A DNA stretch of 41,449 nt from Klebsiella pneumoniae (GTDB lineage Bacteria; Pseudomonadota; Gammaproteobacteria; Burkholderiales; UBA3065). Positions within the stretch are counted from its first letter, which is position 1; every line of letters begins with the position of its first letter. A model generated the notes under the pieces. The model was not told the DNA's origin and did no database searches. It worked only from the letters and a program-made list of their open reading frames with translations. Positions 705 through 7,282 of the stretch are shown here, one piece after another. A program made the translations under genes and the position numbers. The DNA is taken from the NCBI GenBank assembly GCA_945897555.1, contig CAMDGF010000004.1:1-41449 (forward strand), read 5' to 3'.

Positions 705-1370
705 TCAGGGCTCTGGGCTCGAATCGCGGAACGAGACGTCCTGGATGATCCCGTGGCGGGCCGCCAGACGCACCAATTGCGCTGCGTTGTCCACACCGAG
801 CTTCTGCCGGAGCGCCGATTGGTGGTTCGCCACCGTCTTGGCTGTGAGGTTGAGGATGCGAGCGATCTCGCTCACGGCTTGGCCCTGAGCGAGCAGCCGG
901 AACACCTCGAACTCGCGTTCGGTGAGCACGCTCACCGGGTCGGGATCGGTGCCGACGCGCTGCAGGGCGAGCCGCTCGGCCATGGCGTGATCCACATAGC
1001 TGCGGCCAGTCGCTACGCGACGGATGGCCTCCACCAACACCTCCGGCGCTGCCGACTTGGCGATGTAGCCACGTGCGCCAGCGGCCAGTGCCCGGCTGGC
1101 GAACACCACGTCTTCGTGCATGCTGAATACCAGCACGCGCGCCGCAGGCTCGCGCGCCACCATGCGGCGAGTGATCTCGATGCCACTGATGCGCGGCAGC
1201 GAGATGTCCATCACGACCACTTGCGGGCGCAGTTCGCAGAACAAGCGGTAGGCGTCTTCGCCATTGCCCGCTTCGGCAAGGATGCGGATGTCATCGGTCT
1301 GATCCAGCAATCGGCGATAGCCCTCGCGGACTACAGCGTGGTCGTCTACCAGCAGCACATCGATGGTCAT
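705..1370 (-). CDS. LuxR/NarL-type response regulator
   Basis: This is a 221-residue two-domain regulator. The receiver domain (about residues 1-120) shows the acidic pair D9/D10, the phospho-acceptor D55 in VVMDISLP, and K105 in GYIAKS. A LuxR-type helix-turn-helix occupies about residues 148-210 (LTEREFEVFRLLAQG, then KTVANHQSALRQKLG). The ATG at 1370 overlaps the kinase stop by four bases (ATGA), so the two are translationally coupled and form a cognate pair. A longer in-frame opening upstream exists but would run antisense-free through the kinase 3' end and lacks receiver homology. By family it resembles the AgmR/ErbR/ExaE regulators of PQQ-dependent alcohol oxidation; that specificity is inferred. 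Confidence 0.9.
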   Translation of the reverse strand: MTIDVLLVDDHAVVREGYRRLLDQTDDIRILAEAGNGEDAYRLFCELRPQVVVMDISLPRISGIEITRRMVAREPAARVLVFSMHEDVVFASRALAAGARGYIAKSAAPEVLVEAIRRVATGRSYVDHAMAERLALQRVGTDPDPVSVLTEREFEVFRLLAQGQAVSEIARILNLTAKTVANHQSALRQKLGVDNAAQLVRLAARHGIIQDVSFRDSSPEP

Positions 1371-2335
1371 GCGGGCGTCTCCTCGGGGTGCAGGGGCAGC
1401 AGAAAGTGCAGCGATGTGCCGGTCGGTGAGGGGCTCTCGGTGCTCGGTGAGATCTGCAGTCGGCCGCCGAGTAACTCGGCGCGCTCGCGCATGCCGGTCA
1501 GCCCCAGCCCCGGGCGGAACCGGGGTGGCAGTCCGCACCCATCATCGATGATGTGTAATCCAAGCGTGGTCGGCGTCTCGAGACCCAAGCGGATACCCAC
1601 GCTGCGCGCGCCCGAATGGCGTGCCACGTTGGTCAGCGCCTCCTGCACCAGCCGGAACACGGTCATGTTGAGTGCCTCACCCAATTGTGGCAGGTCAGGC
1701 TCGATGGCCAGCGTGTAGCCCACTTCGGGGCGCTGCTGTTGCCAGCCATCCACCATGTGCTGCAAGGCCTCCTCGAGGCCCAGTTCGTCGAGTCCGACCG
1801 GCCGCAAGCGATGCATGAGTGTCCGTACCACCTCGTAGACATGTCGCGCCATGCCGCGGATGCGCTCGATCGCCTCGGTGTCGCGCGCAGCCCCTTCGAG
1901 CTGCCGCCGCAGGCCCACGGCCTCGATCTCGATGGCATTGAGGTACTGGCCGAGTTCGTCGTGCAGCTCGTGGGCGATGTCCTTGCGCTCACGCTCCTGC
2001 ACCTCGAGGCCGCGCCGCGTCAGGTCGCGGTTCTCCTCCAGTGAGCGCGCGAGGTCGGTTTCGAGTTCGACCCGCAGGGCGAGTTCGCGGCGCAGCTCGA
2101 TCCAGCGCCGCCAAGAGAACCAGCCAAGGCCGATGGCGAGCACCAGTAGCGTGGTGCGTAACTCGTCCGCCTGTACGAATTCGAAGTCGGCGGTCCAGCG
2201 GTTGATGCGCTCGTTGAGTTCGAGGGCCGAGGCTGCGAGAAAAGCGATCGTCGTGACAAGGACCACCAGCGCAAGGTCGCGCAGTGTCCGCAGATGGGCC
2301 TCGCCGGCCAAGCGTTTGATCTCGTCCAGATTCAC
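1367..2335 (-). CDS. Sensor histidine kinase, NarX/UhpB (HisKA_3) type
   Basis: This 322-residue kinase has two predicted membrane helices (about residues 20-38 and 61-77) separated by only some 22 residues rich in acidic and aromatic side chains, so there is almost no periplasmic sensor domain. A coiled linker leads to the HisKA_3 dimerisation domain with the phospho-acceptor H122 in DIAHELHDELGQ. The HATPase domain follows, with the N box (QEALTNVARH, N236), DDGCG (264-268) and a GLGLTGMRER lid near 277-286. The start is a GTG with a weak ribosome site. It lies 21 bp after the propeller gene and overlaps the response regulator, giving a complete two-component system. The signal is unknown; sensing in or near the membrane or through a partner is likely. 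Confidence 0.9.
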   Translation of the reverse strand: MNLDEIKRLAGEAHLRTLRDLALVVLVTTIAFLAASALELNERINRWTADFEFVQADELRTTLLVLAIGLGWFSWRRWIELRRELALRVELETDLARSLEENRDLTRRGLEVQERERKDIAHELHDELGQYLNAIEIEAVGLRRQLEGAARDTEAIERIRGMARHVYEVVRTLMHRLRPVGLDELGLEEALQHMVDGWQQQRPEVGYTLAIEPDLPQLGEALNMTVFRLVQEALTNVARHSGARSVGIRLGLETPTTLGLHIIDDGCGLPPRFRPGLGLTGMRERAELLGGRLQISPSTESPSPTGTSLHFLLPLHPEETPA

Positions 2336-2356: not shown

Positions 2357-3376
2357 CTAGCGCTGCAGCACCGCGCCCCACGGTGCATGAGGCAGGCGGA
2401 TGTCACCCGCGGGCCGCAGGTCGAAAGTGTCGAACAGGTGAGCGGTGGCATGTTGCCGGTCGGACACCAGCAGGCGTTTGCCGTTCTCACTCAGCCCCAA
2501 CTGCGCCGGCGCGCGGCCGGCGGGAACGTGCTTGACGATGCGGCGGCTCGAGGTGTCGATTGCCGACACTGTTCCGCTGGTCTGATTGGCCACGTACAAG
2601 CGGCGCCCGTCAGGTGATGCAGCGAGCGCTGTGGGGCGCAAGCCCGCAGCCATGCTGGCCTTGTGCACCCAGGCGCGGCTATCCAGCACCTCGAGGCGGT
2701 GGCTGTCGGGTATGGCCAGCCACACCTCGTGACCGGCGAACACCATCGCCGCCGGTTGTCCGCTGATCCGGATGCGCGTGTGCGGTCGGCCATTGTGCAG
2801 ATCGATGATGGTCACAAGGTTCGAGCCCTTGTGCGAGATGACCAGCCAGCGGCCATCCGGCGAGAAGGCGCAATCTTCTGGGGGCAGAGCATCGATCGAC
2901 ACGCTGCCGACCACTCGGCGTTCAAGCAGGTCGATGTAGACCACCCGGGCGGCTCGCTCCGCGCATACGGCGAGTTGTTGGCCATCCCTAGACAGCCAGG
3001 CCGCCTCTGGCCCCTCGGGAACACTCACGCTCCAGTGGGTGCGCTCATCTCGCAGATCGATGCCCACCACGCGGTTCAGATGGCTATCAACGAGCAGGAG
3101 CGTGCGGTTGTCGCGCGTGAGCAGGGCCGTTTCGATGCGCTGGCCCAAGGGGGGCTCGACATTGAAGGTGCGCACGGTGCGCACCGGGGCGAGGCCGGCC
3201 AAGGTCACACTGCTGCCCGACATCGAAGGCAACCATGCCATCTCGGCGGCAGCGGCGGGCGCCCGCATGCAGCCCAGAGCAAGGGTGACTATGAGCATGC
3301 TGGCGGCACGCCAGCGCTTTGAGGGTGGGGTGGCGGCGCGTTCTGACAGCCGTGGGGGCACAAAGTGGGCAGGCAT
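2357..3376 (-). CDS. Secreted YVTN-family beta-propeller protein
   Basis: The product is about 339 residues if translation starts at the ATG at 3376. Other starts at 3412 (TTG) and 3298 (ATG) are possible because none has a clear ribosome site. A signal-like hydrophobic segment ends in APAAAA. The rest is a run of roughly 40-residue blade repeats with the YVTN pattern, for example RLYVANQTSGTVSAID and FSPDGRWLVISHKGSN. Such periplasmic propellers are frequent partners of PQQ-dependent alcohol dehydrogenase systems, where they are usually called PQQ-dependent catabolism-associated propellers. Here it is the first gene of the operon with the kinase and regulator and could be the sensory partner of the sensor-poor kinase. 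That role is inference. Confidence 0.75.
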   Translation of the reverse strand: MPAHFVPPRLSERAATPPSKRWRAASMLIVTLALGCMRAPAAAAEMAWLPSMSGSSVTLAGLAPVRTVRTFNVEPPLGQRIETALLTRDNRTLLLVDSHLNRVVGIDLRDERTHWSVSVPEGPEAAWLSRDGQQLAVCAERAARVVYIDLLERRVVGSVSIDALPPEDCAFSPDGRWLVISHKGSNLVTIIDLHNGRPHTRIRISGQPAAMVFAGHEVWLAIPDSHRLEVLDSRAWVHKASMAAGLRPTALAASPDGRRLYVANQTSGTVSAIDTSSRRIVKHVPAGRAPAQLGLSENGKRLLVSDRQHATAHLFDTFDLRPAGDIRLPHAPWGAVLQR

Positions 3377-3432
3377 ATCAGGATGCTCACCCCCAAGGCC
3401 CGCGCGCTCCAAGGCAAAACTCCGGCGATGGC

Positions 3433-3447
3433 CGGGAGATATTCCTC
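3433..3447. promoter_or_regulatory. Candidate operator, copy 1 (CGGGA...TTCC dyad)
   Basis: The 15-mer CGGGAGATATTCCTC matches the perfect dyad CGGGAAAAATTCCCG at 4092-4106 in 11 of 15 positions. Its centre is about 64 bp upstream of the propeller start codon at 3376, similar to the other two copies relative to their genes. It is a candidate binding site; no regulator is proven. Confidence 0.4.
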
Positions 3448-3535: not shown

Positions 3536-4027
3536 TCAGCCTTCGCCGATCTGCACCACCTCGACCGAGGACTCGACCACCTTTCCAGTGGTAGCGTCGA
3601 CCTCGACCTTGTATTCCTTGCCGTCGGTGCCCTTGATGTCGAACTCGTAGGATGCCGAACCGTTGGGCTCGATCTCGTACTCGGTCTCGACCACGGTGCC
3701 CGGGTGGACCTTGAGCGCGGCAGCCTTGGCATCGGCTTCGCTGACCTTGGCCTTGGCGGTCCAGCGGGCATCCGTCGGGCTGACTTCCTGCTCGACTTCG
3801 GTGATCTTGGCGCCATCGGCTTGGCACTCGACGTCCCACGCGGTGCCATCGGCCTTCTGGATGTCGAATTCGTAGACGGTGGCCTTGTCTTCGGTCTTCA
3901 CTTCGACCTTGACGATCTTGCCGGGGTGGACCTTGAGCGCGGCTGCGGCGCAGGCCGAAAGGCTGTCGTGTGCGTGGGCGGCGAAAGGTGCCAGGGCCAG
4001 TGCGGTGGCGATAAGGGTCTTCTTCAT
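3536..4027 (-). CDS. Periplasmic protein with two PepSY domains (lanpepsy-like candidate)
   Basis: This 163-residue protein has a clear signal peptide ([19 protein letters not shown], cleavage after residue 19) and an AGGAGA ribosome site. The mature part holds two PepSY repeats, roughly residues 25-80 and 95-158. Each has a helix ending in KVHPG followed by strands of the YEFDI type. It is strongly acidic: I count about 29 Asp/Glu against 16 Lys/Arg. Small double-PepSY periplasmic proteins of this size include lanpepsy, a lanthanide-binding protein described in the methylotroph Methylobacillus flagellatus. That parallel and the methylotroph setting make metal binding plausible, but generic PepSY proteins are common. 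It is a single-gene unit with its own terminator and a dyad operator candidate 72 bp upstream. Confidence 0.85.
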
Positions 4028-4091
4028 TGTCTGTCTCTCCTGATGAGTTGGCGATACGTGTTGCGCTGCCGAACGCTTTGTATCCTAACGT

Positions 4092-4106
4092 CGGGAAAAA
4101 TTCCCG
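4092..4106. promoter_or_regulatory. Candidate operator, copy 2 (perfect dyad)
   Basis: CGGGAAAAATTCCCG is a perfect inverted repeat with 6-base arms around AAA. It is centred 72 bp upstream of the PepSY start codon. Sister copies lie at 3433-3447 and 4235-4249. Confidence 0.5.
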
Positions 4107-4234
4107 CGTCAGTCATCAAAATCGCGGTTTTTCTGGCTTTAAAACTGTCGCGCTGACTTGACATTGTTTTGTGCAGCTGCATCAAAGAGGGTTTCGCCGT
4201 GTGCGCCTGGGTATGTTCTGCTTCCCTGCCATTG

Positions 4235-4249
4235 CGGGAAAAACTCCTG
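4235..4249. promoter_or_regulatory. Candidate operator, copy 3
   Basis: CGGGAAAAACTCCTG matches the perfect dyad at 4092-4106 in 13 of 15 positions. It is centred about 87 bp upstream of the TTG start of the atypical receiver protein. Confidence 0.45.
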
Positions 4250-4328
4250 GATGTCCCATGAATTCGTCTGTTGGCTGGCGATGGCAGGTCACGCAGCATG
4301 CTGTTTTGGTCTTAGCAAGGCGGTTTGA

Positions 4329-4961
4329 TTGCGCATCGCCTGTGTGGGGGGGCTTCCCCCCCGTTTATTGGCCGATCTAGGCGATCTGGCCGAAGCCCCG
4401 CCGCAGCTGTTCAGCTCGGCCGATGGCGCCTTGCGTTTGCCACGCGATGCCCAGCCTGATGTCTGGGTGACTGAGGTGTTTTTGCCCGGGGTCTCGGGCT
4501 TTGAGTTCGCGCGCCGGGTGTCGGCACGCGCTTCGGCCGCTCCGGTGGTGGTGGTCACCCGCCTTGCTGCGGTGTGGCCGCTGGCGCGGGCGGTGAGGGC
4601 GGGTGCCCGCGGCTATCTCCCGCTACCGGTGGCGCCAGAGCGCCTCTCGCTGGCGCTTCATCGACTGCTGGATGGCGGCGCCTTCCGCACCGTGCCAGAG
4701 AGCGTCGGGGCCGATCTGCAACTGCAGCAGGCGGGGGTGCTTGACCTGCCCCCGCGACGCTTCGAGGCCTTGCACCTTCTGCTGCAGGGCGCCGATGCCA
4801 CAGGCACGGCGCTCGCCATGAGCATCAGCCCGCGCAGCGCGGCCGACTACCGCCGGGGGCTCAGGCGCGATCTGAGCCTCGCTGGAGTGCCAGATCTTGA
4901 GCGCCTCGCCGGGCTGCTCGGGGCCGGTTTCTACGGCCCCTGCCAGAGCCCGTCCGACTGA
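4329..4961 (+). CDS. Atypical response regulator: degenerate receiver plus LuxR-like C-terminus
   Basis: The 210-residue product starts at a TTG with AAGG eight bases upstream. The first 120 residues keep the receiver pattern (VWVTEVFLPGVSGFEF, then RAGARGYLPLPVAPERL), but the key residues are changed. The phospho-acceptor Asp is Glu (E in VTEVFLPG), the N-terminal acidic pair is missing (CVGGLPP), and the conserved Lys after GYL is Leu. Aspartyl phosphorylation is therefore unlikely. The C-terminal part (LPPRRFEALHLLLQG, then MSISPRSAADYRRGLRRDL) resembles a LuxR-type helix-turn-helix in degenerate form. It stands alone, divergent from the PepSY gene and convergent with pqqU. It may be a phosphorylation-independent DNA-binding protein or a partner of the 705-1370 regulator. 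Confidence 0.7.
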   Translation: MRIACVGGLPPRLLADLGDLAEAPPQLFSSADGALRLPRDAQPDVWVTEVFLPGVSGFEFARRVSARASAAPVVVVTRLAAVWPLARAVRAGARGYLPLPVAPERLSLALHRLLDGGAFRTVPESVGADLQLQQAGVLDLPPRRFEALHLLLQGADATGTALAMSISPRSAADYRRGLRRDLSLAGVPDLERLAGLLGAGFYGPCQSPSD

Positions 4962-4995
4962 TCGAATTCAAGCCCGAGACCTCGGCGCCTACGGC

Positions 4996-7104
4996 TCAGA
5001 AGTTGTACTTTGCGGTGAAGCCTACCAGGCCGTTTCGGGTCGGGGCCGCCTCGATGTAGGCGGCATTGTTGACGCGCACCGAGCCGATGTATTCCTTGTC
5101 GAACAGGTTGTCGACGCGGGCAAACTCGGTGAAGGTCCAGTTGCCGACATTCTGGGTGAAGCCCATACGCAGGTTGGCCACCGTGTAGCCCGAAGCGACG
5201 TCGCTGTTGGCGTCGTTGGCGAAGACGCGGGTCGAGTGTCGCGCCTCGATGGCAGAGAAGAAACCATACTTTGGATACGTGAAAGCCACCTCGCCGTACA
5301 CGACGTTGCGTGCGGTGCCCGGCAAGCGGTTGCCAGCCTCATTCACTGTTGCGCCGGTATTGACGAAATCGTCGAGGTAACTGGCATCGAGGTAGGTGTA
5401 GGCAAGGTAGGCGTTGAAGTAATCGTTGATTCGGCTGTCGAGCGAGAGCTCGATCCCTTTGCGCCGTGTGCGTCCGCCGTTCTGGAAAACATTGCGTCCG
5501 GCGTCGCTGGCGGCGACCACGATCTCGTTCTTGGTATCGACGTGGAACAGCGCCAGCGTGGCGCGCGTGTCGCTGCCGAGGAATGCCTTTACACCGGTCT
5601 CGTAATTCTGGCTTGTGGCTGGCTTGAGACCAGGGTTCGGCCCTTCACCCGTGGTGGTCGAGAAGGCCGATTCGATGCTGGTCGGGGTCTCGAAGCCGGT
5701 CCCGTAGTTGGCGTACCAGTTCAGGGCTGGCGTGAGTTTGAATACCACCCCCGCGACGGGCAGGGTGCGGTTGAAGGTCGACGTGCCACTGCCGACCGGG
5801 TTGACGCTGGCGGGGATCTTGTCGCGGAAGGTCACCTTGACCTGGCTGTGGCGGATGCCGGCATGGAAACTCAGACGGCTGGTGGCCTCGAGCTCCCCCT
5901 GCGCATAGAAGTCGGTGTTGCGTGAGTCGTTGTCTTCGTTTCGCGCCCGGCGTCGCGAAGCTTCGCTTCCGGTCAGATTGGCGAGACCACCCGCGAGGTT
6001 GCGACTCGCATCGGTGGCGAGGCTCGACCGGTCGTCCAGCGCCTGCTCGTACGACACCCCCACGGTCATGCGTAAAGGCATGTCGGCGATGCTGTTGCGG
6101 TGCGAATAGCGCATGTCGGTACCTGCGAAATCGCGCTTGATCTGGCTTGCGCCCGGCAGCAGGTTGAAGTTGTTGCCAGCAAGGAATTGCAGGTTGGAGC
6201 GGTTGCCAGCGTAGGCCATCACACGGATGCTGTCGCCGTTCTCGAACAGGTGGTCGAGCACGGCGCCGGTCTGGTATTGCGAGCGCTCGACACGCGTACG
6301 GTAGACCAGCGACGAGGCAGCCGCAGCTTTGCGGTCAGCCTGATATTCGGCGAGGGTTAGCCCCTGTGGGTCGAGGGTGAGCGGCTGATCGAGGCCGCTG
6401 GCGGTCCAGGTCAGCTTGGTCCGCTCGGTGAGCTGGAAGCCGAACTTGACGTTGAAAGTGTCGCGCTTGACTGCACTGAAGTCACGGTAGCCGTCGGACT
6501 CGAAGTGGGCGGTATCGAAGACGTAGTTCCAGCGGCCGCTGCTACCCGAAACCTGCAGATTCTCGCGATGCGTGTTGTAGCTGCCGACCCAAGTGCTGGC
6601 CGACACGTCAGGGCGCGGGCCGCCATCTCGCGTGAAGATCTGCACCACCCCACCGGCGCTGTTGCCGTACAGCGCACTGAAGGGGCCACGCATCACTTCG
6701 ATCGACTTGGCCGAAGACAAGGCAAAGGTGGAGGTCTGGCCTTGGCCATCCGGGGTGGAGAGCGGGATGCCATCCTGGTAGATGCGGATGCCACGCACGC
6801 CGAATTGCGACCGCGCACCAAAGCCGCGGGTCTGGATCTGGGGGTCCTGCGCGAAGTTGGCGCGGTTGTTGGCGGTGATGCCCGGGATGCGGATGAGGCT
6901 CTCGGAGGCGTTCACTTGAGGCTGTGCGAACTGGATGTTCTGCGGCTCGATGACATCGATGGAGACCGGAAGGTCGAAGCTTGAGCGTGCTTCCCGCGTG
7001 GCGGTGACGACCACCGGCGACGACTGTGGCTCGACTGCCAGCACAGGAAAAGCCGCGGCGACGGCAGCGGCGAGGGCAATGGTTCGACAACCCGTAGGCA
7101 ACAT
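4996..7104 (-). CDS. pqqU: TonB-dependent outer-membrane receptor of the PqqU (YncD) type
   Basis: The 702-residue protein starts at an ATG with AGGA eight bases upstream; two earlier in-frame starts have weaker support. A signal peptide ending in LAVE precedes a TonB-box-like VVVTA segment. The plug domain (about residues 35-150) carries TRGFGARSQFGVRGIR, DGIPLSTPDGQGQT and EVMRGPFSALYGNSAGG, and the 22-strand barrel ends in the terminal Phe of KYNF. These plug motifs, GFETPTS and the VDNLFDKEYIGSV end closely follow Escherichia coli YncD (700 residues), now named PqqU and known to import the cofactor PQQ. The neighbouring propeller, two-component and PepSY genes fit a PQQ-dependent dehydrogenase theme. 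Another ferric-chelate ligand cannot be excluded. Confidence 0.8.
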   Translation of the reverse strand: MLPTGCRTIALAAAVAAAFPVLAVEPQSSPVVVTATREARSSFDLPVSIDVIEPQNIQFAQPQVNASESLIRIPGITANNRANFAQDPQIQTRGFGARSQFGVRGIRIYQDGIPLSTPDGQGQTSTFALSSAKSIEVMRGPFSALYGNSAGGVVQIFTRDGGPRPDVSASTWVGSYNTHRENLQVSGSSGRWNYVFDTAHFESDGYRDFSAVKRDTFNVKFGFQLTERTKLTWTASGLDQPLTLDPQGLTLAEYQADRKAAAASSLVYRTRVERSQYQTGAVLDHLFENGDSIRVMAYAGNRSNLQFLAGNNFNLLPGASQIKRDFAGTDMRYSHRNSIADMPLRMTVGVSYEQALDDRSSLATDASRNLAGGLANLTGSEASRRRARNEDNDSRNTDFYAQGELEATSRLSFHAGIRHSQVKVTFRDKIPASVNPVGSGTSTFNRTLPVAGVVFKLTPALNWYANYGTGFETPTSIESAFSTTTGEGPNPGLKPATSQNYETGVKAFLGSDTRATLALFHVDTKNEIVVAASDAGRNVFQNGGRTRRKGIELSLDSRINDYFNAYLAYTYLDASYLDDFVNTGATVNEAGNRLPGTARNVVYGEVAFTYPKYGFFSAIEARHSTRVFANDANSDVASGYTVANLRMGFTQNVGNWTFTEFARVDNLFDKEYIGSVRVNNAAYIEAAPTRNGLVGFTAKYNF

Positions 7105-7282
7105 GTGGCGTCCTGATGGAGAGTGGAGTTTTAGGAAGAGGGTCATGGCTGGCCGTCTGGGCACCAGCACGCGGCGCGCACCTTATCAGTCGCTCTTGAG
7201 CGAAGCCATAGCCCGAGGCCCATGAAAATCATGAATCGCGCTGCCGCTTATACTTGCGCGCCCCGGACACCTCGGCCACGGC

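Follow-up and report, generated by a model that had tools for sequence, protein, structure and literature searches.

The gene at positions 4329–4961 of the DNA studied here encodes a protein of the response-regulator type and diverges from a minus-strand run of genes for an intact response regulator, a histidine kinase, a beta-propeller protein and a PepSY protein (Table 1). The first-pass annotation regarded its phospho-acceptor site as dead, and proposed that the product is a constitutively active or ligand-controlled regulator, or else a decoy partner of the neighbouring two-component system. The locus raises the question of what a receiver lacking the residues for phosphotransfer does beside an intact kinase/regulator pair. 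The window, by which we mean the whole analysed stretch of 41,449 nucleotides (positions 1–41449), lies on a contig of 115 kb, the genome (G000) totalling 1.8 Mb, and its GC content is 61–70% in 1-kb steps.

Table 1. Features of the window discussed in the text
Feature	Positions	Strand	Evidence
Intact NarL-type response regulator (DD/D/S/K)	705..1370	-	Response_reg + GerE
HisKA_3 histidine kinase	1367..2335	-	Pfam profile match
YVTN-type beta-propeller protein	2357..3412	-	Profile matches
Site C, 2-mismatch palindrome in the PepSY-propeller gap	3434..3446		Motif scan
Two-PepSY-domain protein, LanPepSY-like	3536..4027	-	Two PepSY stretches; 9vy3_A, E 2.2e-49
Site A, exact palindrome upstream of the PepSY gene; only exact copy in G000	4093..4105		Intergenic alignment, genome scan
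Site B, 2-mismatch palindrome, 80 bp before the start codon	4236..4248		Counterparts in 5/5 genus genomes
Pseudo-response regulator gene, 210 aa	4329..4961	+	PF00072; positional orthologues in 5/5; AlphaFold2 pLDDT 92.6
Receiver domain, residues 1-116, (beta-alpha)5	4329..4676	+	AlphaFold2 model
Gly7-Gly8, replacing the acidic (metal-binding) pair	4347..4352	+	Alignment with the genome's other receivers
Glu49 (GAG), replacing the phospho-acceptor Asp	4473..4475	+	Same-genome receiver alignment
Thr77, conserved switch Thr/Ser, retained	4557..4559	+	Model and same-genome receiver alignment
Leu99, replacing the conserved Lys	4623..4625	+	Alignment with the genome's other receivers
Degenerate LuxR-type helix-turn-helix, residues 140-196	4746..4916	+	Four helices in the model
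PqqU-like TonB-dependent receptor	4996..7170	-	NF041535, 548 bits, below the NCBIfam curated cut-off of 1200
Helicase, 1256 aa	7283..11053	+	ORF list

A receiver without the phosphotransfer residues

The ORF starts with TTG, and a stretch resembling a ribosome-binding site, AAGGCGG, ends 5 nt upstream. Its product is recognized as a receiver by sequence model, residues 28–109 matching Pfam Response_reg (PF00072) with 39.5 bits (cut-off 30.2; E 7.1e-10). Alignment with the remaining receivers of G000 confirmed what had been noticed from the sequence, namely that the acceptor Asp is replaced by Glu, that the acidic pair is missing and that the conserved Lys is Leu. Besides Thr77, the protein retains Tyr96 (K-3), which makes up the Y-T coupling pair with Thr77, as well as Pro53 (D+4) and Gly57 (D+8). 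The full set of acidic pair, Asp, Ser/Thr and Lys is present in 27 of the 29 receivers found in G000 (E <= 0.01; alignment read by eye), and the product of ORF 4329–4961 is the only one with neither Asp nor Lys. The other non-canonical receiver of the genome (C11:46077-46409; L067) retains Asp and Lys, with D-Q in place of the acidic pair and Gly where Thr/Ser is expected. With GG/E/T/L at the key positions, the protein falls among pseudo-receivers, which miss at least one of DD, D, T/S and K; as Glu49 replaces Asp, the window protein is also an aspartate-less receiver (ALR), while its orthologues in G003 and G001 have Asp.

The AlphaFold2 model of the protein (pLDDT 92.6, pTM 0.89) comprises a complete receiver and a LuxR-type helix-turn-helix (HTH), and the folded receiver that the earlier claim called for is thus predicted. 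The best structural match of the receiver was 3t6k (Z 17.1, rmsd 1.7 over 115), solved receivers scoring Z 15-17 among the matches listed, and EvgA matched the full-length model over 195 residues (Z 17.4, rmsd 4.4). The top Foldseek matches were EvgA, DesR, RcsB and FixJ, with about 15–25% identity. The alignment fed to the prediction held 35 rows, mostly canonical relatives, so that the model tells us that the sequence is compatible with this fold and nothing more.

The C-terminus had been described as degenerate but LuxR-like, which agrees with the HTH helices of the model and with the absence of any match to GerE/LuxR Pfam (PF00196) in the ORF at E <= 1. The orthologues in G003 and G004 likewise gave no GerE match at E <= 0.01, and the positional orthologue in G002 matched at E 4e-7. 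The recognition helix reads SAADYRR/SAAGYRR in G000, G003 and G004, whereas regulators of the family commonly have T(V/I)AN(H/Y)Q. The order of domains found in NarL/FixJ proteins, a receiver followed by a four-helix HTH, is present in the predicted model and in its match to EvgA; since GerE is not matched, we call the protein NarL-like without assigning it to that family by signature.

A palindrome shared with the neighbouring two-component system

A receiver-type gene occupies the same slot, from the PepSY gene to pqqU or hrpA, in all of the five genomes compared (G000–G004), which belong to one genus. In G003 and G004, pqqU is lacking here and hrpA is the next gene, on the same strand; the helicase of the window is, we presume, of the HrpA type. 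The PqqU-like receptor gene lies beside the pseudo-regulator gene in G000, G001 and G002 and is absent there from G003 and G004, reflecting either gain or loss. In G004, a gene for a 640-aa RTX-repeat protein (PF00353; L041, 6852–8774, minus strand) adjoins a TonB receptor gene downstream of the two-component genes.

When the five divergent intergenic regions were aligned, two conserved blocks appeared, both being palindromes of the GGGAA-N3-TTCCC type, and the remainder aligned poorly. The block upstream of the PepSY gene (site A) is exact in G000 and G002 and carries one mismatch in G001, G003 and G004. The block before the pseudo-regulator gene (site B) carries two mismatches in G000 and G002, one in G001 and G003 and none in G004, and ends 80, 98, 96, 79 and 73 bp before the start of the gene in G000, G002, G001, G003 and G004, respectively. 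Site C, between the PepSY and propeller genes, has counterparts with one mismatch in G001, G003 and G004, and none with up to two mismatches was found in G002. A search of positions 3950–5100 for a sigma-70-type promoter found none.

GGGAA ranked first among the 1024 possible five-mer half-sites with the same spacer upstream of both genes in the five genomes, a test that is partly circular because the motif was first noticed in the same alignment. Genome-wide, the exact palindrome occurs once in G000 (site A), not at all in G001, twice in G002 (one being site A), once in G003 (neither site A nor site B) and once in G004 (site B). In the window, copies with up to two mismatches do not exceed the number in shuffled sequences (7 vs a mean of 12.9), and the palindrome therefore draws its meaning from its position and conservation.

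The same palindrome marks homologous loci across the order. Out of 399 genomes searched, 46 outside the genus had a match to the kinase, and 40 of them yielded 41 loci (L075–L082, L167–L199; 629,827 bases). These loci, which are not independent because several come from the same genus, contained 35 exact copies in 26 of the 41; of nine permuted half-site controls, one gave 2 copies, one gave 1 and seven gave none. The exact palindrome was found in none of 78 generic response-regulator loci (1,084,078 bases). Several of the exact copies sit between the kinase gene and a divergent gene for a TonB receptor or propeller, and the kinase/regulator pair with a nearby TonB receptor and/or YVTN propeller recurs across the order together with the palindrome. 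The palindrome is only weakly tied to one class of recognition helix, the exact form being present in 21 of the 34 loci whose regulators carry T(V/I)AN(H/Y)Q and in 6 of 10 others. Spelled out in any of six forms, the motif was not found in the literature searched, in which it may be described in other words. The sequence comparisons make it a candidate for the operator recognized by this family of two-component systems.

Expression control as the likely mode of regulation

The suggested partnership with the adjacent two-component system gains support of a different sort, in that the upstream region of the pseudo-regulator gene carries, in all of the five genus genomes, the palindrome that marks the loci of that system. 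In G003 and G004, site B may serve hrpA as well, since the pseudo-regulator gene stands directly before it.

The reading that we favour, with slightly better than even confidence, is that ORF 4329–4961 encodes a phosphorylation-independent pseudo-response regulator, the expression of which is predicted to be controlled by the neighbouring two-component system. The protein would probably be controlled by the amount made, because its switch has decayed and yet the gene is retained beside the intact pair with the motif of that pair. On this reading, the receiver of the window species, judging from its residues, would be incapable of standard Mg-dependent phosphotransfer. The phosphorylated neighbouring regulator would bind sites A and B, and probably C, as the palindrome suggests, and would then drive the PepSY gene, the pseudo-regulator gene and the propeller/kinase genes. 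The pseudo-regulator would in turn act according to its abundance, without phosphorylation, its altered HTH binding a separate target and/or the protein forming dimers with the intact regulator. In the clade of the window, a separate target is slightly preferred, as the recognition helix has diverged; because that helix departs from T(V/I)AN(H/Y)Q, another DNA target or a heterodimer is likelier than competition for the palindrome. Against this reading stand the two orthologues with Asp, one of which also has Lys, and the fact that site B is weakest in G000 and G002. The weak tie of the palindrome to one recognition-helix class, the negative search for a sigma-70-type promoter and a frame break in the G001 copy count against it as well. 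A review of pseudo-receivers points out that phosphorylation may survive changes at DD, T or K (PMC12632262).

Alternatively, the protein may have no DNA target of its own, and may damp or redirect the output of the system by dimerising with the intact regulator or binding the kinase. We regard this as a tentative possibility. The position of the gene beside the pair, the shared upstream palindrome and the retention of the switch residues towards the output face all suit such a role; heterodimers are known for BldM-WhiI (PMC4125116) and have been proposed for CmrT (PMC12632262). Nevertheless, the HTH, dispensable for a role by contact alone, is among the better-kept parts of the protein in G000, G003 and G004.

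Retention and divergence within the genus

The key positions differ from one genome to another (Table 2). For G001, G002 and G004, the acidic pair was assigned by visual inspection, as MAFFT alignments gap that region differently. None of the five copies has both acidic residues together, and at least one key residue is missing in each, while Pro (D+4) and Gly (D+8) after the acceptor are present in all. The catalytic chemistry has been lost piecemeal, whereas residues supporting the fold, and those linking the active site with the output face, have been retained. A lone random loss in an otherwise intact regulator, raised earlier as a refuting outcome, does not describe the gene.

Table 2. 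Residues at the key receiver positions in the five genus genomes
Genome	Acceptor	Lys position	Acidic pair	T/S	K-3
G000	E	L	GG	T	Y
G003	D	L	GD	T	Y
G004	E	A	DP	T	F
G002	Q	L	GD	S	F
G001	D	K	QP	S	Y

That the gene is a decaying paralogue, a former response regulator in which catalytic and HTH residues drift without selection, seems unlikely to us, though part of the data would fit it. The gene diverges fast: relative to G000, the intact regulator is 89–90% identical in G004 and G002 and the pseudo-regulator 47 and 27%, respectively, the range over three intact orthologues of the pseudo-regulator being 27–65%. dN/dS reached 0.47 for G000-G004 (dS 1.1) and 0.68 for G000-G002 (dS 1.5), and the G001 copy has a frame break within the HTH, whether real or an assembly error. 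On the other hand, open frames of 205–229 aa are kept in four of the five genomes, and dN/dS was 0.16 for G000-G003 (dS 1.8), suggesting purifying selection on the pseudo-regulator in that pair; all of these values are rough, because dS exceeds 1 and is near saturation. The rows of the G003 intact regulator (33 codons aligned, in a wrong frame) were left out of this calculation, and several other frames ran from stop to stop. Conservation is also uneven, the HTH helices and the loop after beta-3 being kept best: among G000, G003 and G004, 9 of 11 positions are identical in HTH helix 1 and 8 of 14 in the recognition helix, vs none of the 4 positions of beta-1 and 2 of the 10 of alpha-1. The conserved upstream palindrome and the confidently predicted fold speak against decay as well.

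In a tree of 23 rows, the five genus copies were split from 18 other regulators by a 98/95 branch; the branches are long, which would suit decay, and the rooting is by midpoint. The G001 row comprised the receiver and about 10 residues past the frame break, and three other rows contained 1–2 stop characters. An orthologue outside the genus was not found among the matches listed for 100 relatives and the best 80 of at least 271 relatives; bar two contigs of the same genus, the matches listed were generic regulators of about 23–37% identity. A search of plasmids at E 1e-15 gave no match to the ORF. In the data searched, the pseudo-regulator thus appears to be restricted to one genus.

We also asked whether pseudo-regulators occur more widely next to this kinase family and rejected the idea, as 53 of 61 receivers in 46 loci of the family are canonical. 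The eight flagged ones comprise the five genus copies, a copy in G042, a partial alignment (L192) and the receiver of a long protein (L195). The G042 gene (L075, 5755–6447, minus strand), near a homologous kinase/regulator pair, encodes a degenerate regulator with AA/D/A/R and an intact GerE domain. It did not group with the genus copies in the tree, its neighbours differ (a TonB receptor and a secretin on either side), and it is apparently independent of them.

If Glu49 mimicked the phosphoryl group, the regulator would be constitutively active. Glu is found in both G000 and G004, and it is the commonest replacement in Asp-less receivers (26%) and can activate some receivers, although Glu alone is often insufficient for constitutive activity (PMC4395418). 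We consider this reading very unlikely, since the acceptor is Asp in G003 and G001 and Gln in G002, and the Lys and the acidic pair, which would read such a charge, are lost as well. The homologue comparison thus upheld the loss of key residues in each of the five copies and not the conservation of Glu (E, D, E, Q, D); the catalytic site is degenerate throughout, but a dedicated phosphomimic is unsupported. What survives of the original interpretation is a predicted folded receiver without phosphotransfer residues beside a two-component system. Gating by a ligand or redox state, through an altered pocket or a cysteine, has precedent in other pseudo-receivers (PMC12632262) and is just as improbable here, as no Cys column common to all rows was found in the four intact orthologues aligned.

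A possible lanthanide/PQQ setting

The PepSY protein at 3536–4027 is similar to a solved 153-aa protein, 9vy3_A (E 2.2e-49), the sequence of which is identical in eight entries. LanPepSY of Methylobacillus flagellatus has been described as a 19-kDa periplasmic lanthanide binder with two PepSY domains (PMC11845868, PMC12482762). The model of this PepSY protein (pLDDT 78.4, pTM 0.47) retrieved YpmB-like matches in a fold search that did not list 9vy3, and the lanthanide link is accordingly drawn from sequence similarity. G000 has pqqC and one complete PQQ alcohol dehydrogenase gene. A second PQQ dehydrogenase is present as N- and C-terminal pieces at two contig ends, the C-terminal piece being followed by a MoxJ-type gene. 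The complete orthologues of this split dehydrogenase in G001 and G003 read HDEWDFDG, in which we take the second Asp to be a mark of the lanthanide-type XoxF.

A lanthanide/PQQ switch is possible on account of the LanPepSY-like protein, the PqqU-like receptor (three of five genomes) and the XoxF-like dehydrogenase, and we treat such a role of the two-component system as a lead. It is attractive to imagine the pseudo-regulator as a genus-specific second-tier transcription factor of the order-wide GGGAA-N3-TTCCC regulon, possibly carrying the output of a lanthanide/PQQ acquisition switch, though we rate this as distinctly improbable. If true, such a switch would evolve by rewriting a phosphorylation-free regulator, the two-component pair itself being left alone.

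An AGGGA..TTCCT element, with 1–2 mismatches to the palindrome, was also observed upstream of the XoxF-like gene in all of the five genus genomes (L206–L210). The match begins 131–152 bp before that gene and is flanked by TTGCAG and TAGAGT-like hexamers. The N-terminal 110 aa of this dehydrogenase are 97–100% identical across the genus.

Comparison with known systems

EvgA, DesR, RcsB and FixJ, the NarL/FixJ-type regulators closest to the window protein in the Foldseek search, are regulated through phosphorylation of Asp. Pseudo-receivers, by one count, make up ~6% of bacterial receivers, and how they are switched on and off was termed a mystery in a 2025 review (PMC12632262). The locus provides a small and testable case, in which catalytic residues have been lost differently within one genus, and the output-coupling residues and the palindrome have been kept. 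If the palindrome is an operator, it would also be the binding site of an apparently unstudied kinase/regulator family of the order.

The pseudo-regulator represents a known type of protein, found here in an unstudied setting. Like other pseudo-receivers, including ALRs, it matches PF00072 without the active-site residues (PMC12632262, PMC4395418). In ALRs, however, the Lys position is kept basic in about 70% (PMC4395418), whereas the Lys is lost in four of the five genus copies, and the acceptor varies between species of one genus. For pseudo-receivers beside two-component systems, the models in the review are control by expression level and contact with a partner (PMC12632262). CmrT of the Clostridioides difficile CmrRST system is likewise an atypical regulator beside a normal kinase and regulator (PMC12632262), but there the three genes form one operon and the regulators are of the OmpR type (PMC12548384), while the gene of the window is divergent and its product NarL-like. 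BldM and WhiI of Streptomyces are atypical regulators that act as homo- or heterodimers (PMC4125116). Both are orphan regulators of development that lack a cognate kinase; the window gene, in contrast, adjoins a kinase/regulator pair. Pseudo-receivers as such are familiar, and what is less ordinary in this locus is the drift of the key residues inside a single genus, together with the order-wide palindrome.
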